Source: Acididesulfobacillus acetoxydans (GTDB lineage Bacteria > Bacillota > Desulfitobacteriia > Desulfitobacteriales > Desulfitobacteriaceae). From it: a DNA stretch of 64,000 nt. The notes under the pieces were generated by a model, which was not told where the DNA came from, ran no database searches, and saw only the letters and a list, made by a program, of their open reading frames with translations. Both the position numbers and the translations under genes were made by a program. Positions 42,470 through 59,951 of the stretch are shown here, piece by piece. The stretch is taken from the NCBI RefSeq assembly GCF_902729405.1, contig NZ_LR746496.1, positions 248,001 to 312,000 on the forward strand, in the 5' to 3' direction. Every line of letters begins with the position of its first letter. The stretch's first letter is position 1.

Positions 42470-44035
42470 CTAGTCTTGCTTCCGGTTATCCCACTTAGCT
42501 TCAGCGACCCGGGCCGTGCTCTCTATCAGTTCGGCCAACTGTCCTGCTAAACTCACCCGACTGAACTCGGCACAGCGCTCGATCGAGTCGACGGACCGCA
42601 CGCCGTTGGCCCACTCATCATAATGTTTAGCTAAGGCGGCTTGGGCCTCCTCCACATCCCCGATCCCCACGACACTGCCGATCCCTTTCTCACGAATCAG
42701 GTCAGCGGCGACTCCTTGCGGCAGAAAACCAAGGATGGGTTTTTGCGCGCCGATATAGTCGAAGATTTTACCGCTGTAGGCCGCCTTCGTCTCGGGACTG
42801 TCGTCAAAAATCAACAGTTGCAGCTGAGCCCCGGCTAGGTAGTCCAGGCAAACGTTGTGCGGAACGTAAGGCCAGACCTGAAATAAATCGGCAACCGCGC
42901 TTTCCCTGAACATCTGCCGGAATTCCTCCGGAATGTAACCGACGAACACGACCTGAAGCTTATCCCTCAGCTCCGGGCGCTCTGACACCAAGCCCTCCAG
43001 TGCGCGGACCAACGTCTCGGGGCTGCGCTTCTTGCTCAGGATCCCGGTATGAATGAGGGTAAACTTGTCAAATTCATGAGGGACGACATGGGTAAAATCC
43101 TGTGGATCAAAGCCGTTCGTAATCGTGACAAACTTTTCCCTGTACTCGGGATAACGCGCTCGGTACATCTCGGTAATGCTCGGCGTTACGTTGACGACAT
43201 AAGAGGCGTTTTTTACAACTTTGCGTTCCAGCCAGGCATCGAGTTTTCTGCGAAGCGCGATGTCTTTAGCCATGGCTTCGTTTCCCACCCAAGGATCCCG
43301 GAAATCGGCGATCCAGGGACAACGGTGGACCTTCTGAACTAACAGAGCCATGATATGCACCGTGTACGGGTAGGAGGAGGAAAACAGGACGTCAACCTTC
43401 TCCCGACGCGCTGCCCTGCCGGAGGAGAGAAACCCCAGGGGCAGCCAGCGCACCTTAGAATCCGGGATGAACAGATAGTCGTCAATAAAATCAAAGATCC
43501 TCTGCTTCATCGTTCTGGGGGTGTTCTCCATCGCTCCTGCCGGGGCGCCGGATGCCCCCGCCTGTATGGAGGCGCCGGACGTTCCCGCCTGTATCGAAGC
43601 ACCTGGCACCTTCGCTTCTGCCCGAGCGTCGGGCTCCTGCGCTTCCGCCCGGGTGCCGGTCGCCTTTCCCTGGGCCTGAGCACCGATCGCGCCCGCCTGC
43701 ACCGGCGCGCCGGATACTCCCGCCGTGTCGGTTTCTCCTCGGGCGCCCCGCCCCCTGCGGGCTGCTTTCTCGATCACCTTACGCAGCCACAAAGTCTCCA
43801 GCGAGTTCGAACGAAAGACCCGGACCGAGGCCGGAACCTCCCCGAGCAAACTTTCATCGTAAGCAAAATTATGTCCGTTGCGCACTGTGCTTACCAGCGG
43901 TTGAACTCCAAATTGGGGCAGGTATTTTACAAATTTCAGGGTACGCTGGACTCCGCTTCCCCCCAAAGGTGGGAAGAAGTACGCAATGAACAAAACTTTC
44001 CTCGGTTTTTTCAGCGGCTCTCTCGGCTCGCCCAT
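42470..44035 (-). CDS. Glycosyltransferase with 27-bp-repeat linker
   Basis: A GT-B glycosyltransferase of the GT4 type. The N-terminus reads VLFIAYFFPPLGGSGVQRTL. Later come PWIADFRDPWVGNE, VVNVTPSITEMYRARYPEYR and ITNGFDP (about residues 235-310). The donor half has LIHTGILSKKRSPETLVRAL and SGKIFDYIGAQKPILGFLPQ. In the middle of the N-terminal domain, residues about 100-165, lies an Ala/Gly/Gln-rich insertion encoded by 27-bp repeats (GASIQAGTSGASIQAGASG). The ATG at 44033-44035 is preferred because GGAGG lies nine bases upstream; the ATG at 44042-44044 touches that site. It belongs to the polysaccharide operon. Substrates unknown. Confidence 0.9.
   Translation of the reverse strand: MGEPREPLKKPRKVLFIAYFFPPLGGSGVQRTLKFVKYLPQFGVQPLVSTVRNGHNFAYDESLLGEVPASVRVFRSNSLETLWLRKVIEKAARRGRGARGETDTAGVSGAPVQAGAIGAQAQGKATGTRAEAQEPDARAEAKVPGASIQAGTSGASIQAGASGAPAGAMENTPRTMKQRIFDFIDDYLFIPDSKVRWLPLGFLSSGRAARREKVDVLFSSSYPYTVHIMALLVQKVHRCPWIADFRDPWVGNEAMAKDIALRRKLDAWLERKVVKNASYVVNVTPSITEMYRARYPEYREKFVTITNGFDPQDFTHVVPHEFDKFTLIHTGILSKKRSPETLVRALEGLVSERPELRDKLQVVFVGYIPEEFRQMFRESAVADLFQVWPYVPHNVCLDYLAGAQLQLLIFDDSPETKAAYSGKIFDYIGAQKPILGFLPQGVAADLIREKGIGSVVGIGDVEEAQAALAKHYDEWANGVRSVDSIERCAEFSRVSLAGQLAELIESTARVAEAKWDNRKQD
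43545..43733 (-). repeat. 27-bp tandem repeat inside a glycosyltransferase gene
   Basis: About seven 27-bp units begin with GCGCCGGAT, GCGCCGGAC, GCACCTGGC, GCGTCGGGC, GTGCCGGTC, GCACCGATC and GCGCCGGAT. Each encodes nine residues of an Ala/Gly-rich linker. The length keeps frame. Confidence 0.8.
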
Positions 44036-44057
44036 CAACAACATCCTCCGGCTTCCT

Positions 44058-44215
44058 TATTCCATCGGGTTTCCCATTTCGTGTGGTTTCCCTCTTCCAT
44101 CGCACTTCCTATTCCATCGGGTTTCCCCATTCCATCGGGCTTCCCATTCCATCGGGCTTCCTATTCCATCGGGCTTCCCATTCCATCGGGCTTCCCTATT
44201 CCCCCGGGCTTCCCA
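44058..44215. repeat. 18-bp tandem repeat upstream of a glycosyltransferase gene
   Basis: Units of ATTCCATCGGGCTTCCCA (one-base length variation) repeat about eight times, most perfectly at 44130-44200. They occupy the gap between the C5-epimerase-like gene and the next glycosyltransferase gene. From 44216 to 44286 a different repeat based on GACCTCCGGCCTC continues into the end of the epimerase gene. Confidence 0.8.
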
Positions 44216-44286
44216 TGGTGGCCGCTCGCCTATTCCCGCTCTATTCTGACCTCCGGCCTCTCTTTGCCCCGTCGTCTACTCCGGGC

Positions 44287-45297
44287 CTATTCCGACCTCC
44301 GGCCTCTGACCTCTGACCTACGTTTCGCCACGTAGCTGCTCTGGCGTCTGATCGAAAGCTTGTGCCGTATTTTAGCCGCCGTAGCCAGCACATAGGTCAG
44401 GCGGCTTCGACGTCCTTTTTCCCAGCGGCGGGCCACTGTCGCAAAGACTTCCTCCCCGCTGAGCAGGAACATGGCCCTAAGCTGTTCTATTTGCAGTTTG
44501 TGATAAAAGATACTGGCAATGTCCGCCACCCGAAAGGGATAGAGGTCATAGAGCGACCATTTGAGCCGGCCGGCATCGAACTTCATCACATTCTTTTTCA
44601 GTGTCTGCAGCCCTTGCTCGTAGAACGCTTTAGCCTCGGGATTTTCCCCGGCCAGGAAGAACTCCCACAAACCCCACAGCGCGAAAATAAACCCGTTAAG
44701 AACATAAGACGGAATCGCAGAGGGATATTCCTCATAGAAGATTCCTCCCTCCAGCGTGGCTTGAACGCCTCCCTGCGCCCCGGGCACGGAAAACGCGCGC
44801 AGCGCCCTGTCGCCGCACTTTAGGTATTTCTCATCCTGGGTCGCCAGATGAGCCCGGGCCAGAACGGAGAGCGCCTGCCCCTGTGAGAGCGCGCTCAGCC
44901 AGGGGGCTTTGAGAGCATAGATCTCCTTATCGTGCTCATTGATCCAGCCCCAAAGACCCGGCCGAAGTTCCGCCTGGTTTTCGACCAGCCAATCAGCAGC
45001 GCAAAGAAATATAGTTTGATGAAGTTCCCCACCGTGATCAATATATTCGTCATAATGTCCCAAAGCCCATTGAGCGATGGTTACCGGCAGGTAACAGAGC
45101 TGCCCGTCGATCTCGACCAGGGGAATACCCCGGCTGTCGAATTCCCCGGAATAGTAGGCTTTGCTCCCCATGGCCACCGGATATTTGTCCACCTTCCCGG
45201 AATTCAGCTCGGCATTGGCCGGCATATCCGGGTGCCAATAATCCGTCTGGCCGAAAACCATGCCGCCATAAGCCCGAAACATTTGCCAGATGTTCAT
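44287..45297 (-). CDS. D-glucuronyl C5-epimerase C-terminal domain-like protein
   Basis: The 336-residue protein matches the C-terminal catalytic region of D-glucuronyl C5-epimerases (PF06662), alpha/alpha-barrel enzymes that convert glucuronate to iduronate within a polymer. Landmarks are YPVAMGSKAYYSGEFDSRGI (start), PVTIAQWALGHYDEYI, LKAPWLSALSQGQALSVLAR, GGIFYEEYPSAIPSYVLNGF and WSLYDLYPFRVADIASIFYH, the last close to the SxYDL/YH signature. The final ~12 residues (RRSEVRGRRSE) read into a tandem repeat and are probably not functional. AAAGGTGG precedes ATG, which overlaps the stop of the upstream glycosyltransferase by four bases. No signal peptide is seen, so it would act in the cytoplasm on lipid-linked glycan. 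With the uronic-acid route nearby, a modified uronic acid polymer is plausible. Confidence 0.85.
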   Translation of the reverse strand: MNIWQMFRAYGGMVFGQTDYWHPDMPANAELNSGKVDKYPVAMGSKAYYSGEFDSRGIPLVEIDGQLCYLPVTIAQWALGHYDEYIDHGGELHQTIFLCAADWLVENQAELRPGLWGWINEHDKEIYALKAPWLSALSQGQALSVLARAHLATQDEKYLKCGDRALRAFSVPGAQGGVQATLEGGIFYEEYPSAIPSYVLNGFIFALWGLWEFFLAGENPEAKAFYEQGLQTLKKNVMKFDAGRLKWSLYDLYPFRVADIASIFYHKLQIEQLRAMFLLSGEEVFATVARRWEKGRRSRLTYVLATAAKIRHKLSIRRQSSYVAKRRSEVRGRRSE

Positions 45298-46379
45298 GCT
45301 CCAGACCCACCTTTGTTGAAATTCAGCCGCAGCAAATCGCCGTATAAGCTCTGAACTTCGGCCATGTTATCCTCCCAAATCGCCCTCTCCCGGATCTTTT
45401 TCCGGTTGCGTTCAAACGCGCGCTCCCTCAACCCTTGATCCCGCAGGCCGCGGATCAGGGCCCCGGCCAGCGCCGCCGCGTCTTTAGCCGGCACGATCAG
45501 TCCGTTAATACCGTCGCTCACCCATTCCCGATTGGCGGGGAGATCGGATAACACCGGGAACGACCCGCAGGCCATGGCCTCGAGCAGGGAAACCGCCGTC
45601 GCGTCCGAGGAGGGAACACTCACCATAACAGCCGATTCATTCAAATAAGCCTCAACTTCACTGTGCGGCAGCTGCCCCACAAATCGGACAAAAGGCTCGA
45701 TCCCGAGCGAGGCCGCCAGAGCCTTAAGCTTAGGGGTCTCCTCCCCTTCCCCGGCCAGAACCAGCCTCGCTTTGGGCACCGCCCGCACGGTTTCCGGTAT
45801 CGCTTTCAGGATGATATCAATGTTATAGATAGGCTGGTGCCCCCTGAGGCTCAAGATCTGGGCCGGCTTCTTGTCCGCCGGCGTAATCCCGTCGAACCAA
45901 GCCTGGGAAACCCCCATGGTCACCGTCAACAGGCGTTTGGGAACCCTGTGCAGGAGCTCTTCCATCCGTCCGGACATGTACAGGGAGTCGGAGGTCAGTG
46001 CGTCCGCCCTCGGCAGGACACACTCGACCACCTTTCTCAGCCAGTAGGACCGTACCGGGGCAACCAGAACGTCGGAACCCCAAGCCGAGACGACCAGAGG
46101 GTGAAATTGGCTCATGATGCCCAGGAGGCCAAAGCTCGTGGCATAGTGGGCATGCAAAATGTCCGGGTTAATCCGGCGGACTATCCCCCTAACCTTGGTG
46201 AGGGCCTTCACGTAGGCCAGCCGTCCCTCGCGGCCGGAAGCCAGCAGGTGCACCTGAACGCCCTCGACCGGACAGTCCCGGAACGAGACAACATGAACCT
46301 CATGACCGAGGGAAACAAAATAGGTCAGCCAACGCTGCAAATGAATGCTGCCGGCATCGCCGAGAAAGCACAGGCGCAC
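45294..46379 (-). CDS. Family 4 glycosyltransferase
   Basis: A 361-residue GT-B enzyme without insertions. The N-terminus reads MRLCFLGDAGSIHLQRWLTY; INPDILHAHYATSFGLLGIM closely matches the same region of the transferase at 39552. The donor half has LRGHQPIYNIDIILKAIPET, RLVLAGEGEETPKLKALAAS, the E-x7-E-like VPSSDATAVSLLEAMACGSF and NGLIVPAKDAAALAGAL. The GTG start follows GGAGGTGA and touches the stop of the upstream O-antigen ligase-like gene (TAAGTG). The stop overlaps the epimerase start. Tight coupling of three genes points to one functional unit. Substrates unknown. Confidence 0.93.
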   Translation of the reverse strand: MRLCFLGDAGSIHLQRWLTYFVSLGHEVHVVSFRDCPVEGVQVHLLASGREGRLAYVKALTKVRGIVRRINPDILHAHYATSFGLLGIMSQFHPLVVSAWGSDVLVAPVRSYWLRKVVECVLPRADALTSDSLYMSGRMEELLHRVPKRLLTVTMGVSQAWFDGITPADKKPAQILSLRGHQPIYNIDIILKAIPETVRAVPKARLVLAGEGEETPKLKALAASLGIEPFVRFVGQLPHSEVEAYLNESAVMVSVPSSDATAVSLLEAMACGSFPVLSDLPANREWVSDGINGLIVPAKDAAALAGALIRGLRDQGLRERAFERNRKKIRERAIWEDNMAEVQSLYGDLLRLNFNKGGSGA

Positions 46380-47741
46380 TTAGGTCACCTCCCCCGCACC
46401 CGCCAGAGCCCCAAGCAACCCGAGAAGAATCCAAAGGTAGGGGTCTTCCCAGAAGCGGCCTTCCCCTTGGGCACTGACAAAGACGACGAAGACTCCCAGA
46501 ACGGCAAAGATCGTCAGCAGGGCCCGCGGGTAGCTTTCTGACCAGTCGCTTCCCACGCGCAGCCTGTGCCCCGCGCGCACAGCCCTGGCCAAGAGAACCA
46601 GCAGAAAAGCCAGCACGATACTTACGCCTATTATGCCCAACTCCGCCGCCGTAGTCATCAGGGCCGTGTGGGAAAGGCTCACTCCGTTGCGGATTACGGA
46701 GGCATAGCGGGTCAGCATCACCTTCTGGAAACCACCCAGACCTACACCGAAGAGGGGGTGTTTCACAAACATATCCCAGCCCGCTTGCCATAGATAGCTG
46801 CGTTCGGTTGAAGCTGCCAAGAGGCCATGGCGCAAATCCTGAATCCGGAGAAAAACGGCCGGGTCCACGAGCAAAACCACGCCCCCCAGGAGAATAGCCC
46901 CCGCGAGAATCACATAGACAGGTTTTCTGGGCACAAGGACAGCCAAGAGAATGAAAGCCAAGCCGCAGGCCGCCCAGCCTGTGCGTGAACCCGTGCCCAA
47001 AAGCGCCGCCAACTGAATTGCCAGCGCCAGATAACCGATGACCCGACCCGCACGCGGGACTGTGTTTAAGAGCCAAACCGAAGTGGCGAGCATGCCCAAG
47101 ACGAGAAAGCGCGCATAGATGTTGGCGTCCACAAACGTCGCGTTATAACGGTGCAAAACCTGGTAGATCTGCCCCAGCCAAAGGAAATGGCGGCTCACCA
47201 TTTCATAGACTCCCACTCCGGCCAAGGCCGTACCCACTGCCGCAAAGGACTGCGGCACCAGCCAGTAATCCCGCTCTTCAGTTAGGATACGGTAAACCGC
47301 CAGGCCTAAGACCCAGAGGAGTCCCAGCCGGACCACACCCGTTAGGGTATGCAGCCGGTCAACCGACCAGATCACCGAGAGGAGCCCGTAGAGAATATAG
47401 ATGCCTGAAAGGGAGAACAGCCGGTCCCGCCAACCCGCCCGGGACCTGTCAGGAAAGGTTCCCGCCCTGAAGGAATCCTGGAAGCCGCCGTAGCGGGCCC
47501 AGGGGCCGTGTGAACGCACTGTCGTATACAGAAAGTACAGAACCACGGCCAGGGCCATGATCCTGCCAAGATCAACCATTCCCACAAAAGTCCCCAGTTT
47601 CTCCAGATGCTTGAGCCGGGGAAACCAGGTGCGGGATATCTCCAGGGGCAAAGCGGCAATGAGCAGGGGAACCAGCAGACGCGGATAGCACCACCCCCCG
47701 ATGACCAGGGCCACGGCCAGGATGAGCAGAATCCAACTCAC
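46380..47741 (-). CDS. O-antigen ligase/polymerase family protein
   Basis: The 453-residue membrane protein has about 11 helices and the Wzy_C (WaaL/Wzy superfamily) central loop: HRYNATFVDANIYARFLVLG, GTGSRTGWAACGLAFILLAV and RSYLWQAGWDMFVKHPLFGV followed by GLGGFQKVM. NGVSLSHTALMTTAAELGII gives the conserved His. Such proteins polymerise lipid-linked repeat units or ligate glycans at the outer membrane face. The GTG start is behind AAGGAGG. Another member of the family lies in the same cluster at 51516, so one may be the polymerase and the other a ligase or terminal transferase. Confidence 0.88.
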   Translation of the reverse strand: MSWILLILAVALVIGGWCYPRLLVPLLIAALPLEISRTWFPRLKHLEKLGTFVGMVDLGRIMALAVVLYFLYTTVRSHGPWARYGGFQDSFRAGTFPDRSRAGWRDRLFSLSGIYILYGLLSVIWSVDRLHTLTGVVRLGLLWVLGLAVYRILTEERDYWLVPQSFAAVGTALAGVGVYEMVSRHFLWLGQIYQVLHRYNATFVDANIYARFLVLGMLATSVWLLNTVPRAGRVIGYLALAIQLAALLGTGSRTGWAACGLAFILLAVLVPRKPVYVILAGAILLGGVVLLVDPAVFLRIQDLRHGLLAASTERSYLWQAGWDMFVKHPLFGVGLGGFQKVMLTRYASVIRNGVSLSHTALMTTAAELGIIGVSIVLAFLLVLLARAVRAGHRLRVGSDWSESYPRALLTIFAVLGVFVVFVSAQGEGRFWEDPYLWILLGLLGALAGAGEVT

Positions 47742-47776
47742 AATGAACGCCTCCTTTTAGTTTTCCGCCGGCCCTG

Positions 47777-49435
47777 TCAGTGTTTAAACCTCTGCGACAA
47801 GGTCTGACGCATCAGTGCCAGATCCGCGCCTTTCAGGATGAGAACATCCTGCCACCTGCAGCGCGTATGCCGGACGTAGAAATACAGCGTGGTGAGCGTA
47901 AACGTGATATAGGAAAGGCTGGTTGCAATAGAAGCACCGTTGATCCCGATGCGCGGGATCAGGACAAAATCCAGCACCACCGTAACCACGCCGGATATGA
48001 CCGCGGAATAAATGTTCTTCTCCACCAGGCCAACCCCAGCCAGATAATTGGCCAGGATGTTGGAAATCGAGAAAATGGCCACACCGGGCAAGAGCCAGAG
48101 AAAAGCCTCAGCCGCCGGGGCAAAGGGGTAGGTAAACCACCAGATGATCAGCGGTCTGCTGATTATGCCCAGGACGAGCGAAAAAAGTGCAATCAGGGCC
48201 AAGCTCACCCGTGTCACTTGATTGGTAAATGTATCCAGTTCCCCTTGATTCGTCGCCGAGGACGCAACCGGCAGTATGACGGTGGCAATGCTCCCGGAAA
48301 CCGCCCAAAGGGTTTTCCCCAGCGTCACGGCGACCCAGTACATGCCGACCTGATTGAGCGGCAGAAAGTAGTTAACGATGAAGACGTCCAAACTATAATT
48401 AAGTCTCTGGATGAAATTTCCCACTTGAGCCTTCAGGCCATAGCCCAGCATCCGACCCATGAGAGGAAAATCAAGGCTGAATAAATAGCGCAGGGCACCG
48501 CTCCTCGACCACTTCCCTGGCTCCGGGATTTCTCTCTCCGGGATTTCTGTCCCCGGGATTTCTGTCTTCGAGATTTCTGTCCCCGAGATTTCTCTCCCCA
48601 AGCTTTCTCTCTCTGGGATTTCTCTCCCCAAGCTTTCCGTCTCCGAGATTTCTCTCCCCAAACTTTCTGTCTTCGAGATTTCTGTCCCCGAGATTTCTCT
48701 CCCCAAGCTTTCTCTCTCTGGGATTTCTCTCCCCAAGCTTTCCGTCTCCGAGATTTCTCTCCCCAAGCTTTCTCTCTCCGGGATTTCTGTCTTCAAGCTT
48801 TCTCTCTCCGGGATTTCTCTCCCCGGGACTTTTTCGAGAAAATCCCGCCGTCTGACAAGCCTGACCAAGATCGCCATCTCCCAGACGTTCACGATGACAG
48901 TGCCGGCCAGGGCCGCGAGAATCGCGGAAGAGGGGGAGGCCAGGTAGAAAAAGAGGGCCACCAGGAGTATGAGGTTGAGGACCTTGTCTCCGACATTAAC
49001 TCGATTATATGCCACAACATCCTGCAACCCAAGCAAAACATTGAGCAGAGATGCTTTTAAATTCATGAAAGGCACGGCGAGGAGCACCATCAGCATTTGC
49101 GCGTCGCTCACTCCGCGCAGAAACTGGAAATGAAAGCGGGTATTGAGATAGTAGAAGGGGACTAAAATAATGGCGCTGAGCAGAGTCAGAACGATATTAT
49201 TCCCAACGATGCCGCCTAAATCCCGCCTGTTCTTGCCCAGAAAGAAAACATTGGCAGCTGACAAGCCTAAACCCAAAATCAAAGTGCCAAAGGTGAGAAA
49301 ATTGCTGGCGACATTCCAGACCCCCGCTCCGGCCGGGCCCAACACCCGGGAAAGAAGTGTGGCCGAGATGAAAGAGAGCAGAAACAAAAACATATTGCTC
49401 AAAAATGTGATGGTAACGGATTTTGTAAAACCCAT
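47777..49435 (-). CDS. Wzx-like flippase with 5-residue repeat loop
   Basis: A MATE/MOP-superfamily oligosaccharide flippase moving undecaprenyl-linked repeat units across the membrane. The first six helices (1-200) start SVTITFLSNMFLFLLSFISA with LSRVLGPAGAGVWNVASNF; a second bundle of eight helices follows (about 320-550), with LNYSLDVFIVNYFLPLNQVG and the polysaccharide-synthesis C-terminal domain. The loop between bundles, about residues 201-305, is composed of 5-residue units (EIPER, ESLGR, EISET, EISGT) encoded by 15-bp repeats. It should be cytoplasmic, highly charged and extended. A typical flippase of this group is about 450 residues, so the extra ~100 is the repeat. AGAGGAG precedes ATG. 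Confidence 0.92.
   Translation of the reverse strand: MGFTKSVTITFLSNMFLFLLSFISATLLSRVLGPAGAGVWNVASNFLTFGTLILGLGLSAANVFFLGKNRRDLGGIVGNNIVLTLLSAIILVPFYYLNTRFHFQFLRGVSDAQMLMVLLAVPFMNLKASLLNVLLGLQDVVAYNRVNVGDKVLNLILLVALFFYLASPSSAILAALAGTVIVNVWEMAILVRLVRRRDFLEKVPGREIPERESLKTEIPERESLGREISETESLGREIPERESLGREISGTEISKTESLGREISETESLGREIPERESLGREISGTEISKTEIPGTEIPEREIPEPGKWSRSGALRYLFSLDFPLMGRMLGYGLKAQVGNFIQRLNYSLDVFIVNYFLPLNQVGMYWVAVTLGKTLWAVSGSIATVILPVASSATNQGELDTFTNQVTRVSLALIALFSLVLGIISRPLIIWWFTYPFAPAAEAFLWLLPGVAIFSISNILANYLAGVGLVEKNIYSAVISGVVTVVLDFVLIPRIGINGASIATSLSYITFTLTTLYFYVRHTRCRWQDVLILKGADLALMRQTLSQRFKH
48521..48832 (-). repeat. 15-bp tandem repeat inside the flippase gene
   Basis: About 20 units of 15 bp, such as GAGATTTCTCTCCCC and GGGATTTCTCTCTCC, arranged with a higher-order pattern of longer units. 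Encodes 5-residue units starting with Glu. Frame is kept if units are gained or lost. Confidence 0.9.
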
Positions 49436-49569
49436 GCGGTTTGTTCTCCTCTAAAAGCGGAAGTTGAGCCTCGGAGATCCGGAACTCGCTTCAGGAAGAA
49501 AACATCCGTTCACTTCCTCCGGCACAAATCGATTGAACGCTCGGGCCGCTCTCCGGACTCAGGGAAGAT

Positions 49570-51198
49570 TCACCCGGCCAGAGCATCCCGATAGACTCCC
49601 TTGAGTTCCTCCGCCAAAGCCCGGGGCCCGAAGTGTGTGTCGGCGTAGGCTCTGAGAACCGCCGGCTTGTATTGGGGAAGCCGCCGGGCCATCTCCCGCA
49701 TACCGTCGAGAAGAGCCTCGCTGCTGCCGGGCTTGACCAGGAGCCCGGTCTCGGCAGTCACCAGACTTTCCGGCCCTCCGCAGGCCGTGGCCAGTACCGG
49801 TATGCCCGAAGCCATGGCTTCGATCAAAACACAGCCGAAAGTCTCCTTTAAGGAAGAAAGGACGAGGAAATCAGCTTCCCGGTAGCGTTCGGGCATCTCT
49901 TCCGGCGGCAGCACTCCCCGGAACCGGCAGCTTCCCTCTATCCCCAGTTCCCGTGCCCGCGCTTCATAGTGTTGTCGCAAGGATCCATCTCCAATCAGTT
50001 CCAGGCGGAACCGGCGCTCCCGCGCCAAACCAGCCAGGGCCGGCAGCAGAAATTGCAACCCCTTGACTTCCGTCTCATCCATCCCGCCTACAAAGAGGAG
50101 TCTGAGCGGCGCAAGGCCCTGCTGTCCCTCTCTCTCCGGACGCCCGCGATCTGCCCCGCCGTGTCCGAGACCGTCCTCGTCCGGTCGAAGCCCAACCCCG
50201 GGGACCCCTCCGTCCCGTCGGGAATCTGCTCCGGTCTCTCCGGCACCTGCCCCGGTCTCTCCGACACCTGCCCCGGTCTCTCCGACACCTGCCCCGGTCT
50301 CTCCGGCACCTGCTCCGGTCTCTCCGGCACCTGCTCCGGTCTCTCCGGCACCTGCCCCGGTCTGTCCGGCACCTGCCCCGGTCTGTCCGGCACCTGCTCC
50401 GGTCTCTCCGGCACCTGCCCCGGTCTCTCCGGCACCTGCCCCGGTCTGTCCGGCACCTGCCCCGGTCTGTCCGGCACCTGCCCCGGTCTCTCCGGCACCT
50501 GCCCCGGTCTGTCCGGCACCTGCCCCGGTCTGTCCGACACCTGCCCCGGTCTCTCCGGCACCTGCCCCGGTCTGTCCGGCACCTGCTCCGGCCCCGCGCC
50601 CGCTGTCCGGCGTGAAACGCGAGGTGTCCACGACATTCGGCAGCACCCGCAGCTTCAGGTTCCAGCCGAAGCTTTCGATCTGCCCGGCCAAAGCCAGACT
50701 CACTGGGATAACCAGCCGTGCTTTTTGAAAAGCGGCCTTAAGAAGGATGCGGTGCTGCCACTTCGCGGTATAATCCCGGAGATAAGACATGTGTTCCGTG
50801 ATGACATAGGGCAATTTCCGCCTGCGGGTAAAAAAGTAAGCGAGGATTCCGGCGGGATAAGCGACATGCACATGCAGGATATCCGGTTGAAATTGCCCCG
50901 CCGCTTCCCGGAGCAACTTGAGCGCACTGCGGTAGCTGCCGAAACGGGCCCAACGGCGCCGGAACGGCTGGCGGGGATTTAGCGGACCGCCAAGAGAGTT
51001 CGCCCGCCAAGTTATGATCCCCTCTTCGTCGGTTCGGCGTACGCTGCCCGCCGGAACCTCCTCATCAAAAGGATAAACCACCCCCACTTCCAAACCGTAC
51101 GCCCTCAGAGCCCTGGCTTGCTCACGCACAAAAACTCCCTTGACCGGGTTCGGGGTGTTCGGATACCAACTGCTCAATATCAAGACCCGCAAACTCAA
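49570..51198 (-). CDS. Family 4 glycosyltransferase with 7-residue repeat linker
   Basis: A GT-B transferase. The N-terminal domain (1-195) has RVLILSSWYPNTPNPVKGVF, PDILHVHVAYPAGILAYFF and YVITEHMSYLRDY. Residues about 200-322 are 17 copies of TGAGAGQ/TGAGAGE, then an Asp/Gly-rich end. The C-terminal donor domain (about 350-540) has LFVGGMDETEVKGLQFLLPA, GDGSLRQHYEARARELGIE and LSSLKETFGCVLIEAMASGI, with the E-x7-E motif, and GPESLVTAETGLLVKPGS. Without the repeat, length is normal for GT4. The listed start is TTG; a TTG two codons later has better spacing from GAAGGTGG, a site lying in the upstream 18-bp repeat. The two domains would be held by a flexible 120-residue tether, which is unusual since they must close on the donor. 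Confidence 0.92.
   Translation of the reverse strand: MSLRVLILSSWYPNTPNPVKGVFVREQARALRAYGLEVGVVYPFDEEVPAGSVRRTDEEGIITWRANSLGGPLNPRQPFRRRWARFGSYRSALKLLREAAGQFQPDILHVHVAYPAGILAYFFTRRRKLPYVITEHMSYLRDYTAKWQHRILLKAAFQKARLVIPVSLALAGQIESFGWNLKLRVLPNVVDTSRFTPDSGRGAGAGAGQTGAGAGETGAGVGQTGAGAGQTGAGAGETGAGAGQTGAGAGQTGAGAGETGAGAGETGAGAGQTGAGAGQTGAGAGETGAGAGETGAGAGETGAGVGETGAGVGETGAGAGETGADSRRDGGVPGVGLRPDEDGLGHGGADRGRPEREGQQGLAPLRLLFVGGMDETEVKGLQFLLPALAGLARERRFRLELIGDGSLRQHYEARARELGIEGSCRFRGVLPPEEMPERYREADFLVLSSLKETFGCVLIEAMASGIPVLATACGGPESLVTAETGLLVKPGSSEALLDGMREMARRLPQYKPAVLRAYADTHFGPRALAEELKGVYRDALAG
50234..50595 (-). repeat. 21-bp tandem repeat inside a glycosyltransferase gene
   Basis: Seventeen nearly perfect 21-bp units built on CTCTCCGGCACCTGCCCCGGT, with a CTC/CTG alternation that makes Glu or Gln. 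The low divergence among units suggests recent amplification or homogenisation. Confidence 0.95.
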
Positions 51199-51207
51199 CC
51201 CACCTTC

Positions 51208-51441
51208 GCCATTGGGCCCCCCTTGTCACGGGGTCCGCCCCAGCCACAGGCTCCACCTTCGCCACGGGACCCCCCCTCGTCGCAGGGTCCGCCCAAGCCA
51301 CAGGCTCCGCTTTCGCCATTGGGCCCGCCCTCGTCGCAGGGTCCGCCCAAGCCATAGGCTCCACCTTCGCCGCGGGACCCCCTTGTCACGGGGGCCGCCC
51401 TCGTCGCAGACTCCACCCTTGCCACAGGCTCCACCCTCGCC
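51208..51441. repeat. 18-bp tandem repeat upstream of a glycosyltransferase gene
   Basis: About 13 units of 18 bp, for example GTCGCAGGGTCCGCCCAA, GCCACAGGCTCCGCTTTC and GCCATTGGGCCCGCCCTC. Three variants cycle to give a 54-bp higher-order unit. On the minus strand some units contain GAAGGTGG, and the last of these provides the ribosome site of the downstream glycosyltransferase gene. Confidence 0.85.
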
Positions 51442-51515
51442 ACAGAGACTCCCCGTGATAGCCTGTCCCCGCGCCCGAGGAGCATCCCGCCGCTCCCGGC
51501 GCCGGAGCAGCCTGC

Positions 51516-53033
51516 CTAAAGAGATCGTTCGAAGATCTCTCCTTTATCCTCCGCTAAGAATTTCTCACCTTTGTTGACCACGAGAACCGCCAGACTGAGT
51601 AAAAGCCACATTTCAGTAAAGTTGATCACCGAACTCGGGGCGAAAGAGGTGAGAATAAAACCCGCCAAGGCCGCCAGCAAACCTAGGTAGAGGAAACTCA
51701 TAAAACTGTAGGGGGCTCGGGTGCGGCTCAGACGGCACCTCTTGAGCAAGGCCCAAAGAAGACTCAGATAGATAAAGATCCAATACAAGAAAATCCCGAC
51801 ACCGAAATCCCCCAGAATTTCGAACCATAGACTGTGAACGTTCGTGATACCGAAAGTGTTTTCTTTGCTGCCGATATAAAAAGGCGTGTTGGCCACACCG
51901 AAGCCTTCCGGGTGCCCTTTGAGCAGCACTCCCTTAACTACATCCACCAGGATGGTATAACGTTCACTGGTCGAACCCTGGTCACCGTAAGCTACGATGG
52001 GCGTCGGGTGGTAAGAACCGTGAAAGCTCAGCTTGTTCAGAAACTCGGTATTATTAAACTTGCCGAAATAGACGTCAAGCTGCGGCACAAAGGAAAGGCT
52101 GTAGAAGACAACCAGAGTCACCAGGACCCAGGCAAACGCGCGTTTGCGCTTCTCTTTCTCCCGGGTAACGCTAAAGTAGATGAGAAACCCCAGCATGGTG
52201 ACCAGCATTGTGATATAGGCTGTCCGGGAAGTGGAAAAGATGATATTGATTAGGATTGCCACCTGCAGAATGCCCAGGCCCCAACGGATTTTCCTCTCTT
52301 TGGCAAAAGCAATTCCCGCTAAAATAAAGGACATGGCCAAAACGAGGAAGGTCCCGAAATTATTCGGGTTGTACCAGAAAACCGTAGGGATAGTCTTCAG
52401 GTAATAAGGACCTTTGGCATACCAGCCTTCATCAATAAAGATGTTGCGCACCGGCATGCGGATATCCAGGATCTCCAGCAGTCCCATAAACAAAGCCGGA
52501 ACCGTGAGGAAAAAAAGGAATTTCACGGTCTGCTTCAGTTTGGCCAGATTGGGGTTATAACGGTAAACCGCCAAGGCGAAGCAAATCATGATGGCATAAT
52601 CGACCATATACTTTAGGGCCGCTTTCAGGTGCGTCACCCAGAGCAAAGAAAGAATCATGTACAGGATAAAGATGCTCAGGAAAAGCAAATAGCGGTTTTG
52701 GGCCAGGCTTTTGAGGCTCCAGGTTTTTCTGCGGCGCATGAATTCGATGAACATGCTGACCGTCAGGATAAAAAGGGCGATATGCAGATAATAGACATTA
52801 AAATGGCCAACCGGCAGATTAAAGGTGAAGTCCATAATCGCAAACAGGAGCACAAAGTTGTAAAGGAGCTCCGACTTGCTCTCCCACTGCAGTTTGTTAA
52901 TAATCAGCAAGCCGAATACAAACGCGTAGAGATCAACAGCCCAGAGTTGCACGCCCAGCAGCAGATTGCCGAGGATGAACAAGCTGTAGATGGCACTGTA
53001 GGTAAGTTTCTTGTTGTCTCCGGTCCAATTCAA
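51516..53033 (-). CDS. O-antigen ligase/polymerase family membrane protein
   Basis: The 505-residue protein has about 12 membrane helices. The Wzy_C-type landmarks are TVFWYNPNNFGTFLVLAMSF, STSRTAYITMLVTMLGFLIY, STSERYTILVDVVKGVLLKG with a GHPEGFGVANTPFYIGS loop, and TNVHSLWFEILGDFGVGIFL with the conserved His. The TTG start follows GGAGGAGG. It is likely the repeat-unit polymerase or a glycan ligase. The gene is more AT-rich than its neighbours, common for Wzy genes. It lies between the UDP-sugar genes and the 18-bp repeat. Confidence 0.87.
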   Translation of the reverse strand: MNWTGDNKKLTYSAIYSLFILGNLLLGVQLWAVDLYAFVFGLLIINKLQWESKSELLYNFVLLFAIMDFTFNLPVGHFNVYYLHIALFILTVSMFIEFMRRRKTWSLKSLAQNRYLLFLSIFILYMILSLLWVTHLKAALKYMVDYAIMICFALAVYRYNPNLAKLKQTVKFLFFLTVPALFMGLLEILDIRMPVRNIFIDEGWYAKGPYYLKTIPTVFWYNPNNFGTFLVLAMSFILAGIAFAKERKIRWGLGILQVAILINIIFSTSRTAYITMLVTMLGFLIYFSVTREKEKRKRAFAWVLVTLVVFYSLSFVPQLDVYFGKFNNTEFLNKLSFHGSYHPTPIVAYGDQGSTSERYTILVDVVKGVLLKGHPEGFGVANTPFYIGSKENTFGITNVHSLWFEILGDFGVGIFLYWIFIYLSLLWALLKRCRLSRTRAPYSFMSFLYLGLLAALAGFILTSFAPSSVINFTEMWLLLSLAVLVVNKGEKFLAEDKGEIFERSL

Positions 53034-53082
53034 GTTAATCCTCCTCCCAAACCTATCTGGGCTTCCACACTAAACGGGAGAC

Positions 53083-54183
53083 CTAGGCCAAAGCTTTACG
53101 CATAACCCTGGCAATATGTTCCTGTTGCTCCCGTGTGAGCTCCGGATAGCAAGGTATGGCCACTGCCTCCCGGGCGGCGCCCTCCGCCACGGGGAAATCC
53201 CCCTCCCGGCAGCCAAGATTCCGCAGGGCTTTCTGTAAGTGAAGAGGCACAGGGTAATAAATCGCACTGGCAATGTCGGCCTCAGCCAGCCGCTCCATCA
53301 CCTGCTGCCTTTTCTCAGTCCTCACCACGTAGAGATGGTAAATCGGCTTAGCCTTCGGGTCCCGTCCCGGCAGGGTCAAGGGCAGATCTCCGAGCAGTTT
53401 GCCATATCCGGACGCCGCCTGACGGCGCGCTTCATTCCATTGATCAAGGTATCTGAACTTCACCCTCAAAATAGCGGCTTGAATCTCATCAAGACGGCTG
53501 TTGTGACCTACCTCTTCGTGATAATATTTTGTTCGGCAGCCATGAAAACGCAACATGCGCAGTTGAGCCGCCAGATGTTCGTCATCCGTGGTGATCATCC
53601 CGCCGTCTCCGTAAGCGCCCAGGTTTTTGGTCGGGAAGAAGCTGAAGGTACCGGCGTGCCCGATCGAACCCGCCTTTCTCCCGTTGTATTCGGCCCCTAT
53701 GGCCTGGGCCGCGTCCTCGATGACTTTTAGGTCATAGCGGGCGGCAATCTCCATCACCCGCTCCACATCCATCATCTGGCCAAAGATGTGCACGGGAATG
53801 ATGGCTTTGGTCTTAGCGGTAATTTTTTCTTCCAATTGAGTCAAATCCAGATTCAGAGTCACGGGATCGATATCCACAAAAACCGGCTTCGCCCCCAGGA
53901 GGGCCACCGTCTCAGCCGTAGCAAAGAAAGTGAAAGGCGTGGTGATCACTTCATCCCCGGCGCTGACACCCAAGGCTTCGAGCGTCAACAACAAGGCGTC
54001 CGTCCCGTTTCCGACCGCCACCGCTTCTTTGACTCCGCAATACTGAGCCATCTCCTGCTCGAGCGCTTTCATCTGCGGGCCGAAGATGAACCTGGCCGAA
54101 TCCAGAACGCTTTGAATCGCTGCGTCGATTTCCTCTTTAATCGTCAGATATTGAGCCTTTAGGTCCAACAGCGGAATAGCCAT
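53083..54183 (-). CDS. wbpE: DegT-family aminotransferase, WbpE-like
   Basis: A PLP-dependent sugar aminotransferase of 366 residues. Landmarks: IPLLDLKAQYLTIKEEIDAA, VGNGTDALLLTLEALGVSAG, EVITTPFTFFATAETVALLG, LKVIEDAAQAIGAEYNGRKA, and the PLP lysine in FSFFPTKNLGAYGDGG (about residue 187). VGHNSRLDEIQAAILRVK is near the C-terminal domain. The sequence pattern fits WbpE/WlbC, which aminates UDP-3-keto-GlcNAcA at C3. The start follows AAAGGAG, and the stop of the 2-epimerase gene lies four bases upstream. It sits with homologs of WbpA, WbpB, WbpD and WbpI, which strongly supports this role. The symbol is by pathway context; VioA- or FdtB-like specificity is the alternative. Confidence 0.88.
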   Translation of the reverse strand: MAIPLLDLKAQYLTIKEEIDAAIQSVLDSARFIFGPQMKALEQEMAQYCGVKEAVAVGNGTDALLLTLEALGVSAGDEVITTPFTFFATAETVALLGAKPVFVDIDPVTLNLDLTQLEEKITAKTKAIIPVHIFGQMMDVERVMEIAARYDLKVIEDAAQAIGAEYNGRKAGSIGHAGTFSFFPTKNLGAYGDGGMITTDDEHLAAQLRMLRFHGCRTKYYHEEVGHNSRLDEIQAAILRVKFRYLDQWNEARRQAASGYGKLLGDLPLTLPGRDPKAKPIYHLYVVRTEKRQQVMERLAEADIASAIYYPVPLHLQKALRNLGCREGDFPVAEGAAREAVAIPCYPELTREQQEHIARVMRKALA

Positions 54184-54187
54184 CCTT

Positions 54188-55252
54188 TCAATCTCCTTTC
54201 AAAATGCTGAGAAACTTTCCGGCCGCATCCCCGTCGCCGAAAATTTGAGGGCGCTCGGGTGGCGGCGCGAACTCGGTCACAGCCTTGAGAATAGACTGGG
54301 TATCGGCCCCGACCAAAACATTCCAGCCTGCCGCCACTGTCTCCGTCCATTCAGTTTCATCCCGCAGCGTGATACACGGAACTCCCGCGAAGTACGCCTC
54401 TTTCTGGACCCCTCCGGAATCGGTCAGGATCTTGCGGGCATTCTCTTCCAAACAAATCATGTCCAAGTAGCCAACCGGTTCGAGAATCCGCACATCCGAA
54501 CCCGCGAGCAAATCGCCCAATCCTTGATCGTCCATGACTTTTCGGGTGCGGGGATGCAGGGGCAGGATCACCGGTATGCCCGCTTGCCCCAGGGCCCGAA
54601 GGATTCCTTTCAGGCGCTTGGGATCATCCGTGTTCTCCGCCCGGTGGATAGTGCCCAGAATATAGCCCCCGGGGGGGAGCCCCAACTTCTCCGGCAGGGA
54701 AAGGCGCTGACGCGCCAGGCGGCTGTTATAGCGAAAAGCATCGTACATGACGTCGCCGCTGAGATGAACCCCCTTTTGGATACCTTCCGCCGACAAATTG
54801 TTCACCGCCGTCCGGGTCGGACAAAACAAGAGTGTGCTCAGATGATCTGTCAACACCCGGTTAATTTCTTCCGGCATCTCGCGGTTAAAGCTGCGCAGGC
54901 CCGCTTCGATATGAAAGACCGGGATATGCAATTTAGCGGCCGCCAGAGCCCCTCCCAGGGTAGAATTCGTGTCTCCGTAAACCAAAACGGCGTCCGGCTG
55001 CTCTTGCAAGAGCACTTCTTCCACAGCCTTCAAAATGGCTCCGGTTTGCTCGCCCTGGCGGCCGGAACCGACTCCGAGGTTATAGTCCGGACGGGGAATA
55101 TGCAGCTCAGTAAAAAAAATATCCGACATGTTGGAATCATAGTGCTGCCCGGTGTGAATGAGGACTTCCCGATACACGGAGCGCAGAGCTCTGGACACAG
55201 GAGCCGCCTTGATAAATTGGGGCCGCGCCCCCACTATGGTCGCTATCTTCAT
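54188..55252 (-). CDS. wbpI: UDP-N-acetylglucosamine 2-epimerase family, WbpI-like
   Basis: A non-hydrolysing UDP-HexNAc 2-epimerase (GT-B fold, 354 residues): KIATIVGARPQFIKAAPVSR, HTGQHYDSNMSDIFF, VLVYGDTNSTLGGALAAAKL, HIEAGLRSFNREMPEEINR, GTIHRAENTDD and LTDSGGVQKEAYFAGVPCI are all family motifs. Enzymes of this type make UDP-ManNAc (WecB/MnaA) or, as WbpI/WlbD, convert UDP-GlcNAc3NAcA to UDP-ManNAc3NAcA. The adjacent wbpA, B, D and E homologs favour the second. It is tightly linked to the aminotransferase downstream. The last residues (ILKGD) look intact. Confidence 0.93.
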   Translation of the reverse strand: MKIATIVGARPQFIKAAPVSRALRSVYREVLIHTGQHYDSNMSDIFFTELHIPRPDYNLGVGSGRQGEQTGAILKAVEEVLLQEQPDAVLVYGDTNSTLGGALAAAKLHIPVFHIEAGLRSFNREMPEEINRVLTDHLSTLLFCPTRTAVNNLSAEGIQKGVHLSGDVMYDAFRYNSRLARQRLSLPEKLGLPPGGYILGTIHRAENTDDPKRLKGILRALGQAGIPVILPLHPRTRKVMDDQGLGDLLAGSDVRILEPVGYLDMICLEENARKILTDSGGVQKEAYFAGVPCITLRDETEWTETVAAGWNVLVGADTQSILKAVTEFAPPPERPQIFGDGDAAGKFLSILKGD

Positions 55253-55352
55253 CGACAGATTAAACCCTTCCCGGCCCTAACCAACGCCGCAGCCACCTTT
55301 GCTTAGTCAAAGTTCCGGTTTCATGGCTGAAGTTCTTCCTCTCGGGGCCGAC

Positions 55353-55407
55353 AGTGAACTCGTTTAACTAAAGTTAAACATCACGATAGTGTCCTGTGGA
55401 CACTATC
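55353..55407 (+). repeat. 55-bp double-hairpin repeat, copy 1
   Basis: The element has two perfect hairpins: GTTTAACT-AA-AGTTAAAC and GATAGTGTCC-TGT-GGACACTATC. It is repeated in inverted orientation at 57970-58024, so the two copies flank the wbpD-like and wbpB-like genes. Most differences between copies fall in loops or are compensated across the stems. Downstream of this copy (55440-55490) there is another small hairpin, CCACTT-GCAG-AAGTGG, followed by AAGTCTCACAGTTG, which resembles ends of IS200/IS605-type elements. Confidence 0.85.
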
Positions 55408-55505
55408 GCCGAACCGCAAGCTTTCAAAGAATACTTGTACCCCAGCCCCACTTGCAGAAGTGGAAGTCTCACAGTTGGATGAAGAAGAACGAACTCCGCA
55501 GGCTT

Positions 55506-56624
55506 TCACGGCAGGAGTTCCTCCTCCGGCACGGGTCGGACGTCCCGGGCCGGAAACCCTTTGACCACGCGCCGGGCCTCCGTATTCTTACTGACCAAAG
55601 CTCCCGCCGCCACAAAGGTTTCTTCCGCGACCCTGACCCCGGGCAGGAGGATCGCTCCCCCGCCGACCCGGGCCGCACGCCCGATATGCGGACCCTTCAC
55701 CAATTTAAAACGCTTCTCAGTCCGTCCCATGAAATTGTCGTTGGTCGTTGTGACCATAGGAGCGATGAAAGCCCGCTCCTCGATTTCCATATAGGCCGTG
55801 ATATAGGATCCGGTCTGAATCTTGGTCCAGGCTCCGATCCGGGTGTCGTTTTCCACTGTGACACCGCTCCCGACAATTACCCCTTCACCGACAAGACAGC
55901 GTTCGCGGACGATAGCCCCGTCTCCGACGAAACTCCGCTCCCCAAACACAGTGCCGGCGTAGAGAACCGCCGCGCAGCCGACCGTACAAGCACAACCCAT
56001 GTTCAGCGGCGGCAGGTCCGCTTGTACTTTTACTGTGCTGGAAGCCGCCGGCCTGGGTCTGCGGCCCAGGGAGGAGTTGCCGCCGATAAAACAAGCCTCT
56101 CCCAACTCTGTGCCCTCATAGAGGGTACTGTGATCCCCGACCCGAACCCGCGCACCTAAATGTACGCCCCGGTGGACCGTGACATGGTGCCCGAGTTGGC
56201 AGCCGTCCCCGAGAACAGCTCCCTCCTCCAGAATACAGCCCGAGCCCAGAACCACTCCTTCGCCTAAAACCACACCCTCGCCAAGGGAACAAAAGGGACC
56301 CAGCGCCGCACTCTCCGGAATCACTGCCGTCGCCGCCACACAACTCAGCGGGCGGCCGTCCGCGGTGTTTCCGTCGCCGTCGGGCCCACAAGGACTTTCC
56401 GCCGCTCCGCCGCCGTGACCGGCCGGCCCCTGGGAATTTTCAACCGCCTCAGCGCCATGGCCCGCCGGCTCGTGAACATTGCCGGGCAATCCCCGGAAGT
56501 TGTCGGCTGCTTCGTCAGGCGGACCGCTTAACCCCCCCCAGGCGTTGCCGGCTGACCCGCCGTCGATACTTGCGGCCCTGCCCGGCTTACTTATCTCTTT
56601 CTTATAGTCGTGGTCATGTGCCAC
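55506..56624 (-). CDS. wbpD: Left-handed beta-helix N-acetyltransferase, WbpD-like
   Basis: A hexapeptide-repeat acyltransferase. After a 95-residue Gly/Ala/Asp-rich N-terminus with degenerate 14-residue repeats (EPAGHGAEAVENSQ, GPAGHGGGAAESPC), hexapeptide turns begin at about residue 100 (AVIPESAALGPFCSLGEGVV) and continue to about 345. Near the end, VTTTNDNFMGRTEKRFKLVK and GPHIGRAARVGGGAILLPGV match the active-site end of WbpD/WlbB, which acetylates the 3-amino group of UDP-GlcNAc3NA-A. The helix is roughly twice the usual ~190 residues because the hexapeptide block appears duplicated (about 100-190 and 225-345). The weak start is GTG after GGGTGAT. It lies between 55-bp inverted repeats with the wbpB-like gene. 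Confidence 0.85.
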   Translation of the reverse strand: MAHDHDYKKEISKPGRAASIDGGSAGNAWGGLSGPPDEAADNFRGLPGNVHEPAGHGAEAVENSQGPAGHGGGAAESPCGPDGDGNTADGRPLSCVAATAVIPESAALGPFCSLGEGVVLGEGVVLGSGCILEEGAVLGDGCQLGHHVTVHRGVHLGARVRVGDHSTLYEGTELGEACFIGGNSSLGRRPRPAASSTVKVQADLPPLNMGCACTVGCAAVLYAGTVFGERSFVGDGAIVRERCLVGEGVIVGSGVTVENDTRIGAWTKIQTGSYITAYMEIEERAFIAPMVTTTNDNFMGRTEKRFKLVKGPHIGRAARVGGGAILLPGVRVAEETFVAAGALVSKNTEARRVVKGFPARDVRPVPEEELLP

Positions 56625-56712
56625 CTTATCACCCGTCCTCAGCCTCGGGGCCCGAGCGGACCTTCGCCCGCAGCCCCCGCTCCTTCATGGTCTGCGATAT
56701 TCGGAGTTTCCC

Positions 56713-57777
56713 CTAATCCGCCGCGCTTTCCCGCAGCGGGAAGATTACGGGTTGTCCCGTCTCCTGACACTGGTAAATCGCCAGAATAATCTCCAGGGCC
56801 TTGCGGCCCTCCTCACCGGGGACGGCCGGAGTTCCGCCTTCCTTGACCGCTCGGATCATGTCCTGAATAATTTCGCGGTGGCCGAAACCATAAACTGTGG
56901 GGGGGTCACTTTCCTGAGAAGCAAAGAGTTCTTCTTTTTCTTTTTCGCCGCCCGGAAACTCCCAGGTTTCAATACGGTTGACCGCAATCCCGCCGATGAT
57001 GACGGAACCCGTCTCACCGAAGACATTTAACGTCTCCTCAATGTTGCGGGGATAAATCGTGGAAGCCGCCTCAATCAGCCCGATGGCGCCGTTCTTAAAC
57101 TTAATGACCGCACCGGCGACGTCTTCCATCTCTATCTTGCGCAAACGCGTAGCCGTATATCCGAAGACAGACTCCACCGGACCGAACGTCCACTGTAAGA
57201 GGTCGATATTGTGAATGGACTGATTCATTAAAACCCCGCCGTCCCGGAGCTTAGTTCCGCGCCAAGGGGCTTGGGCATAGTACTCATCATTGCGGTTCCA
57301 GCGGATCGTAGCCTGGCCGTGCGTCAGTTGACCGAAGCGGCCTTCTTCCAGAGCCCGGCGCATCGTCTTGACGGATTTGTTGAAGCGGTTTTGGTGGATG
57401 ACCGCCAGTTTGACCCCGGCTTCTTTACAGGCCGTAATCAGCTCATCCGCACTCTTTAAGGTCATCGCCATCGGTTTTTCCACCATAACATGCTTGCCGG
57501 CTTGGGCCGCCGCGATCCCGATGCGGGCATGGAGATCGCTCGGAGTCGCCACCGTAACCACGTCGATATCCGCCTCTCGCAGCATAGTCAGGTAATCGGT
57601 ATAAGGTTTTCCCCCGTATTTGTCGGCAAAAGCCCGGGCTTTCTCCGGAATGATATCGCAAACAGCGGCGAGTTCGGCCTCGGGCAGCGCCGCGATAGAT
57701 TCCGCATGCTTGGGCGCGATCCGTCCGCAGCCGATGATGGCAAATCTTAACGCTTTAATCTTATCCTTATCCTGCAA
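56713..57777 (-). CDS. wbpB: Gfo/Idh/MocA oxidoreductase, WbpB/WlbA-like
   Basis: An NAD-dependent dehydrogenase of the Gfo/Idh/MocA family. The Rossmann part starts LRFAIIGCGRIAPKHAESIA and includes the family hallmark HVMVEKPMA with the catalytic Lys. NRFNKSVKTMRRALEEGRFG, then WRGTKLRDGGVLMNQSIHNI with the catalytic His, match the WlbA/WbpB group, which oxidises UDP-GlcNAcA at C3. I chose TTG at 57775-57777 because AAAGGAG is ten bases upstream; the frame extends 11 codons further to 57810. It is followed by the WbpD-like gene and sits near the other pathway genes. Confidence 0.9.
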   Translation of the reverse strand: MQDKDKIKALRFAIIGCGRIAPKHAESIAALPEAELAAVCDIIPEKARAFADKYGGKPYTDYLTMLREADIDVVTVATPSDLHARIGIAAAQAGKHVMVEKPMAMTLKSADELITACKEAGVKLAVIHQNRFNKSVKTMRRALEEGRFGQLTHGQATIRWNRNDEYYAQAPWRGTKLRDGGVLMNQSIHNIDLLQWTFGPVESVFGYTATRLRKIEMEDVAGAVIKFKNGAIGLIEAASTIYPRNIEETLNVFGETGSVIIGGIAVNRIETWEFPGGEKEKEELFASQESDPPTVYGFGHREIIQDMIRAVKEGGTPAVPGEEGRKALEIILAIYQCQETGQPVIFPLRESAAD

Positions 57778-57969
57778 AAGTAATCCACTCCTTTTAACCT
57801 CTGCCCCCAACGCGGTCCGTCACTCAGGCCTTACGCTGCAAACCTGTCCGCAAAGAATATCATGATCTGGCCCGGCCGCAAGGATCCCTGCTCGTCTGCC
57901 CGCCTGCCACAGTCCGCTCCGAAACTACCGGAAACCGGCTTAGCGGCCTGCGCTCAGCTCATCCGTCCT

Positions 57970-58024
57970 GATAGTGTCCATAGGACACTATCAGGACGTT
58001 CAGCTTTAGCTAAACGAGTTCACT
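57970..58024 (-). repeat. 55-bp double-hairpin repeat, copy 2 (inverted)
   Basis: On the minus strand it reads AGTGAACTCGTTTAGCTAAA and continues to GGACACTATC, matching 55353-55407 over the full 55 bases. The first stem here is GTTTAGCT/AGCTGAAC, so an A-T pair of copy 1 has become G-C, a compensatory change. Next to it, 58030-58095 holds short degenerate repeats of TGACTGCGCTTAC type. Confidence 0.85.
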
Positions 58025-58111
58025 TGCTGACCGTGCTTGCTGACTCGGCCTCATGACTGCGCTCACTACTGCGCTTACTGACTGCGCCTGCGATTTCGCC
58101 GACGCCTTTCC

Positions 58112-59467: not shown

Positions 59468-59610
59468 GAAATGCTGCTCCCTTCGAACAAAACTTTTCTT
59501 TCTCCCTGCCCCGGCTGCCGGGGGTGGCTCCCGCCTTGGCAACTGCCTGCCGACTTGCAAACCGCACTCTTTTCCCGCGGTTCAGCGGCACCACAAGGCG
59601 AACGTCCTTG

Positions 59611-59950
59611 TCGGCTGTACCCGTCTTTACCCGTCTTTACCCGTCTTTACTCGCCTTTATTTGCCTTTACTTGCCCTTACTCGTCTTTACTCGCCTTTAC
59701 TTGTCTCTGCTCGCCCTTACTCGTCTTTACTCGCCTTTACTTGTCTCTGCTCGCCTTTACTCGTCTTTACTCGCCTTTACTTGCCCTTACTCGTCTTTAC
59801 TCGTCTTTCCTTGTCTCTGCTCGCCTTTACTTGTCTCTGCTCGCCTTTACTTGTCTCTGCTCGCCTTTACTTGTCTCTGCTCGCCTTTACTTGCCTGTGC
59901 TCGCCTTTACTCGCCTTTACTTGCCTCTGCTCGTCTTTACTCGTCTTTAC
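59611..59950. repeat. 10-bp tandem repeat, 34 units, intergenic
   Basis: Thirty-four consecutive 10-bp units in strict phase. The main types are TCGCCTTTAC, TCGTCTTTAC and TTGTCTCTGC, which partly alternate to make 20-bp higher-order units between 59811 and 59890. The array starts directly after the stop codon of the 4,6-dehydratase gene (minus strand) and ends 140 bases before the dehydrogenase start. All units are pyrimidine-rich on the plus strand. The 10-base period is close to one DNA turn and is not a multiple of three. Confidence 0.95.
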
Positions 59951-59951
59951 T

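Follow-up and report, generated by a model that had tools for sequence, protein, structure and literature searches.

The long insert in the hinge of a glycosyltransferase (GT) of Acididesulfobacillus acetoxydans INE is, very probably, an intragenic minisatellite: a repeat that multiplied locally, was filtered by the reading frame and is tolerated in a floppy hinge. The gene lies in the window, a 64-kb stretch of the genome (64,000 nucleotides, contig positions 248001-312000), and consists of the following parts.

49570-51198, minus strand: GT4-type (TuaC-like) glycosyltransferase gene, 542 aa, TTG start
50608-51192, minus strand: N-terminal (acceptor-side) GT-B half, residues 3-197 (Pfam PF13439/PF13579 at residues 22-194; alignment with nine orthologs)
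50226-50591, minus strand: 21-bp x 17.4 minisatellite, 17 units of G(Q/E)TGAG(A/V), in the interdomain hinge (Tandem Repeats Finder and translation)
50110-50607, minus strand: whole interdomain linker, 166 residues, made up of the array and its degenerate flanks
49573-50109, minus strand: C-terminal (donor-side) GT-B half, residues 364-542, with E452-x7-E460 (Pfam PF13692/PF00534 and alignment)

Tandem Repeats Finder (TRF) placed the array at 50226-50591 (366 bp), with 17.4 copies of a 21-bp unit, 95% matches and a score of 627. An earlier note on this DNA had reported 17 copies of a 7-residue unit at 50234-50595; the array is real and those bounds were right to within 8 bases. When read on the minus strand, it comprises 17 consecutive 7-residue units in frame, namely seven GQTGAGA, six GETGAGA, three GETGAGV and one GETGADS. 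The description of a Gly/Ala tether encoded by nearly identical 21-bp units was also borne out, as the units are represented by five distinct 21-mers with a mean pairwise identity of 93% and the domains on either side are intact. Four of the five variable positions in the unit alter the amino acid. The unit variants are interspersed, the order Q-Q-E recurs within the array, and the frame is open throughout. No array with a score of at least 50 was found in a dinucleotide-shuffled window compared to 23 in the real one, and chance is therefore excluded as the source of the array. Searching the whole genome (a single 4,520,225-bp contig) with the unit at up to three mismatches gave 17 places at the locus and five elsewhere, while a reversed control pattern gave four places. 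The unit is private to its locus within the genome, which led us to reject a mobile or transposed origin.

The array separates the two domains of a GT-B type enzyme, as the earlier note had proposed. The Pfam halves, at residues 22-194 and 366-503, flank the array and are nearly full length (profile positions 6-170 of 170 for PF13439 and 3-139 of 142 for PF13692). The sequence KETFG(C/V)VL(I/L/V)EA, an EX7E-type donor-site motif, was present in all ten aligned GT sequences. The nearest NCBIfam model was TuaC (NF047684), with 104.2 bits against a cut-off of 550 bits. The protein thus resembles the family-4 GT-B enzymes in having both halves and the EX7E-type motif, but it falls under the TuaC cut-off and has a linker of 166 aa. 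AlphaFold2, run on an alignment of two sequences only, gave a low-confidence model (mean pLDDT 45.4, pTM 0.34) in which helices and strands alternate on both sides and residues 196-364 are predicted to be without structure. A sequence search against solved structures found, among the matches listed, the C-terminal half only. In GT-B enzymes the linker is one of two interdomain crossings and the C-terminal helix is the other. This helix is conserved in the alignment of orthologs. With two crossings, a floppy loop could therefore bulge out without parting the halves.

A plasmid collection gave two weak partial matches only. A search of 49400-51600 for sigma-70-like promoter sites was negative. 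No Rfam family reached its gathering score in 44000-60000, and an RNA element was rejected on this ground.

We searched the GT protein against 61 genomes. Among the loci fetched, nine besides INE had a clear ortholog (combined score above 200 bits), namely Peptococcaceae bacterium CEB3, the only congener of A. acetoxydans INE found, and eight more distant sequences at family or order level. The linker was short (~9-25 residues, judged by eye) in 8/8 of the distant orthologs, in agreement with the earlier note, which had called it normally short. At the same place, it is expanded to 166 residues in INE and to 71 in CEB3. A polymerase, the GT, a flippase and a second polymerase lie together in INE, CEB3, the sister genus G003 and G007, and the GT genes compared are therefore the same gene. 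The repeats in the CEB3 linker are different ones, with units of 42 and 21 bp. Unit number differs between the two genomes of the one genus, as do linker length and unit sequence. The 21-bp repeat of CEB3 is present in 2.2 copies and matches the INE unit at 16/21 positions, a match equalled by 5/964 random CEB3 intervals. Recent growth, which had been suggested from the homogeneity of the array, can accordingly be placed after the split from CEB3, where about two related 21-bp units are found. The INE-CEB3 dN/dS was 0.112 for the N-terminal half and 0.135 for the C-terminal half; both catalytic halves are under purifying selection.

The window holds ten arrays of score at least 80 in 64 kb. 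Further arrays of the window, and the neighbouring gene, are as follows.

51200-51445, minus strand: second array with an 18-bp unit, immediately 5' of the GT start codon, with an SD-like GAAGGTGG (CEB3 counterpart at L011 1401-1499)
47777-49435, minus strand: Wzx-type polysaccharide flippase, the next gene of the cluster
48523-48828, minus strand: flippase array, 15-bp-based with a 105-bp higher-order period, ~100 aa (CEB3, G003 and G007 lack it)
59618-59951, minus strand: intergenic array, 33 x 10 bp, with a short seed alone in CEB3
44050-44216, minus strand: intergenic array with a 17-bp unit, its end lying 6 bp upstream of the ORF that starts at 44044
40896-41065, no strand assigned: array of a 20-bp-based unit between ORFs 39552-40799 and 41092-42447, with related arrays in CEB3

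The flippase array adds 300 bp in INE relative to CEB3. Its absence from CEB3, G003 and G007 makes a gain on the INE lineage most likely. For the 59.6-kb array, the seed in CEB3 matched at 10/10 positions, and 0/962 random intervals were as good. The same test was weak for the flippase array (11/15 positions, with 58/958 random CEB3 intervals as good) and failed for the 44-kb array (11/17 positions, with 361/949 as good). Higher-order periods were observed in two arrays, 105 = 7 x 15 bp in the flippase and 110 = 11 x 10 bp in the 59.6-kb array. Together with the Q-Q-E order in the GT, these periods suggest multi-unit steps. The 18-bp array precedes the GT start codon in both INE and CEB3. As its unit holds the SD-like sequence, the ribosome-binding region of the GT itself seems to have been multiplied. 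The array at 44050-44216 likewise sits at a translation start region.

Arrays in genes and between genes were compared with respect to the reading frame. Among INE arrays of score at least 80, the period was a multiple of three in 14/15 coding arrays compared to 7/20 intergenic ones (Fisher p = 0.0006), although TRF may favour periods divisible by 3 in coding DNA. Genes for this statistic came from a codon-usage caller (353 genes, 77.9% coding), and three gene-edge arrays were excluded. Length differences between INE and CEB3 within the window were multiples of three in 8/8 cleanly delimited coding arrays (111, 0, 0, 0, -48, 300, 285 and -57, three of them zero) and in 5/12 intergenic arrays. 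From this comparison 41163-41227 was excluded, as the interval crosses a gene end; the arrays at 8973 and 63675 fell inside aligned segments. Such a pattern would be left by a process blind to the frame if frameshifts were then selected against. Of the 23 non-coding or edge arrays of score at least 80 in the INE sample and the window, 20 were rich in purines on the strand that carries the nearest gene; the mean purine fraction was 0.62, compared to 0.53 for coding sequence.

Arrays of this kind are abundant beyond the window. With overlapping TRF rows reduced to the best-scoring one, as in the other TRF counts, and the window itself left out, the 400-kb INE sample had 28 arrays of score at least 80 and 260 kb from CEB3 had 25; ten relatives, covering 937 kb, had 19. 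The CEB3 count came from 13 stretches, and four further CEB3 stretches served synteny alone. When INE and CEB3 were pooled, this gave 53 arrays in 660 kb versus 19 in 937 kb, or 8.0 versus 2.0 per 100 kb (Mann-Whitney on 33 versus 47 stretches, p = 7e-6, with stretches of the same genome not independent of one another). Arrays are thus about four times denser in Acididesulfobacillus than in the ten relatives. The densities of G003, nearly as rich at score 50 (14.1 per 100 kb) and with 2.3 per 100 kb at score 80, and of G014, which is not poor at score 80 (4.4 per 100 kb), count against a sharp genus boundary. Also against such a boundary, a stricter decamer criterion applied to small samples gave 22.5 per Mb for INE, 3.8 for CEB3, 25.0 for G014 and 11.3 for G003. 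The G+C content of INE and CEB3 (53-54%) is above that of the relatives (42-50%), yet hardly any arrays appear in shuffled sequences. The abundance is not explained by a simple loss of MutS1 or RecJ, both of which are present and nearly full length in the genome. In the mutS1 search, each Acididesulfobacillus genome (G000 and G001) gave two MutS-family matches. G003, G007, G012, G014 and G025 each gave at least one further MutS-like match with a frame of ~520-660 aa, which is interrupted by stops in G007 and, for G003, in one of its two pieces.

Elsewhere in INE, the 400-kb sample has arrays in NusA (34 x 15 bp), IF-2 (29 x 27 bp) and RecG, and in a D-Ala-D-Ala carboxypeptidase. INE NusA (L055 16849-18759) carries a C-terminal tail of ~34 five-residue units after its KH domains, and in the INE RecG helicase (L056 4703-7162) a 39-bp array precedes the wedge domain, within the N-terminal region. 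The open frame of NusA has 660 residues in INE and 623 in CEB3; it is at most 525 in 35/36 other genomes and 528 in G039 (matches in 39/41 genomes, the weak G052 match being left out). Some relatives also have a long IF-2 frame (976-990 aa in G007, G012 and G025), and IF-2 alone is therefore no evidence for the genus.

The GT array belongs to an already known class, the in-frame coding minisatellites, having a unit above 10 bp that lies in frame in several copies (21 bp x 17.4). Subirana and Messeguer 2019 (PMC6749651) found, in the part available, densities above 4 satellites per Mb in just 18 of the 119 species of bacteria; amino-acid repeats are encoded by many of the satellites, with periods divisible by 3, and the satellite-rich prokaryote genomes carry unique, unrelated arrays at scattered places. 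By a rough re-coding of the criterion of that study, the INE sample gave 22.5 per Mb and INE would rank among the satellite-rich species, near the 23.0 per Mb that is the highest bacterial density in the part of the table available. The INE arrays are also like those minisatellites (as described in the same part) in being unique and scattered, with many in-frame and coding. They differ in that an orthologous sister genome, CEB3, shows low-copy or empty sites, and in that housekeeping enzymes carry arrays in their linkers and tails. The text of PMC6749651 contains no word beginning with desulf. We found no report of the GT array in a literature search on tandem repeats and Acididesulfobacillus. 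In two papers on the genus, the word "repeat" is absent from PMC10949509 and occurs once in PMC8982180, in a reference title, and tandem repeats are unmentioned.

Other explanations for the insert have to be weighed against this reading. The earlier note had raised the possibility of a contingency or tuning locus, in which the number of hinge units varies GT activity, and hence the surface polysaccharide, within a population. The array does lie in a polysaccharide cluster beside a flippase that also gained an array, and instability is expected to rise with the purity and length of a repeat (PMC3899988, available part). Like the simple-sequence contingency loci of phase variation, it is a tandem repeat inside a surface-glycan gene, but its unit is a multiple of three and switches no frame. 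At 50226-50591, inside the reading frame, it entails neither a frame shift nor a change in promoter spacing. An on/off switch is unsupported because 21-bp steps never shift the frame, and it was rejected on this arithmetic and on the genome-wide context; a change in unit number could therefore at most tune the enzyme. The purifying selection on both halves speaks against a contingency locus too, as does the occurrence of like arrays in NusA, RecG and intergenic DNA, which have no tie to surface glycans. No length variants of the array are known, and a literature search over titles and the openings of abstracts found no case of an in-frame array in a GT hinge. Taken together, we regard a contingency or tuning role as quite improbable.

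A linker rich in Gly, Ala, Glu and Gln could also have been favoured as a functional tether, for instance for wider domain opening, partner binding or acid tolerance. The expansion in both sequenced members of the genus (166 and 71 aa), and in 0/8 other orthologs, would fit such a role, but the two linkers are unlike in length and in unit sequence, and most of the variable unit positions alter the amino acid. Selection for a tether therefore seems improbable to us. Lastly, tandem repeats are known to cause errors in assembly (PMC6868369, available part). The INE genome, according to the part of PMC8982180 available, was assembled from PacBio RSII reads and corrected with Illumina MiSeq reads, and the array is just 366 bp long. 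Its interspersed variants and open frame, as well as the repeat-bearing insert found independently at the same place in CEB3, further argue against a sequencing or assembly artefact, which is unlikely in the extreme.

We thus favour an intragenic minisatellite that arose by local multiplication. The common ancestor of INE and CEB3 would already have carried a short 21-bp direct repeat in the GT hinge. On the INE lineage, this repeat may then have been multiplied by replication slippage or unequal recombination, often by several units per step. Both processes are standard models for tandem repeats (PMC3899988, available part). A general hairpin-driven mechanism was rejected: as a single strand the GT array folds somewhat better than shuffled sequences (z -2.3), but this does not hold for the flippase array (z 0.2) or the 59.6-kb array (z 2.1). 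The GT array probably survived because 21 is a multiple of three, the residues are small and hydrophilic, and the hinge loop of the GT-B fold would tolerate a floppy insert. The linker would then be nearly neutral, and the two domains would fold on either side of it. The GT array is one case of the genus-level abundance, in which intergenic arrays take any period and genic arrays almost only periods in frame. Tentatively, and with some doubt, we suggest that the rate of tandem duplication is raised in Acididesulfobacillus, beyond a mere relaxation of selection, and that minisatellites of 10-60 bp are born chromosome-wide from short seeds.

The GT hinge may serve as a clean example of how a long disordered interdomain linker arises in a bacterial enzyme, based on the low-copy repeat in the sister genome, the long array in INE and the frame filter that separates coding from intergenic arrays. 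It also cautions against taking every repeat array in a surface-glycan gene for a contingency locus. The organism could be a model for the birth of minisatellites. If the rate of tandem duplication is indeed raised, enzymes of this genus would keep acquiring new disordered linkers and tails, and the INE-CEB3 pair would present arrays before and after birth.
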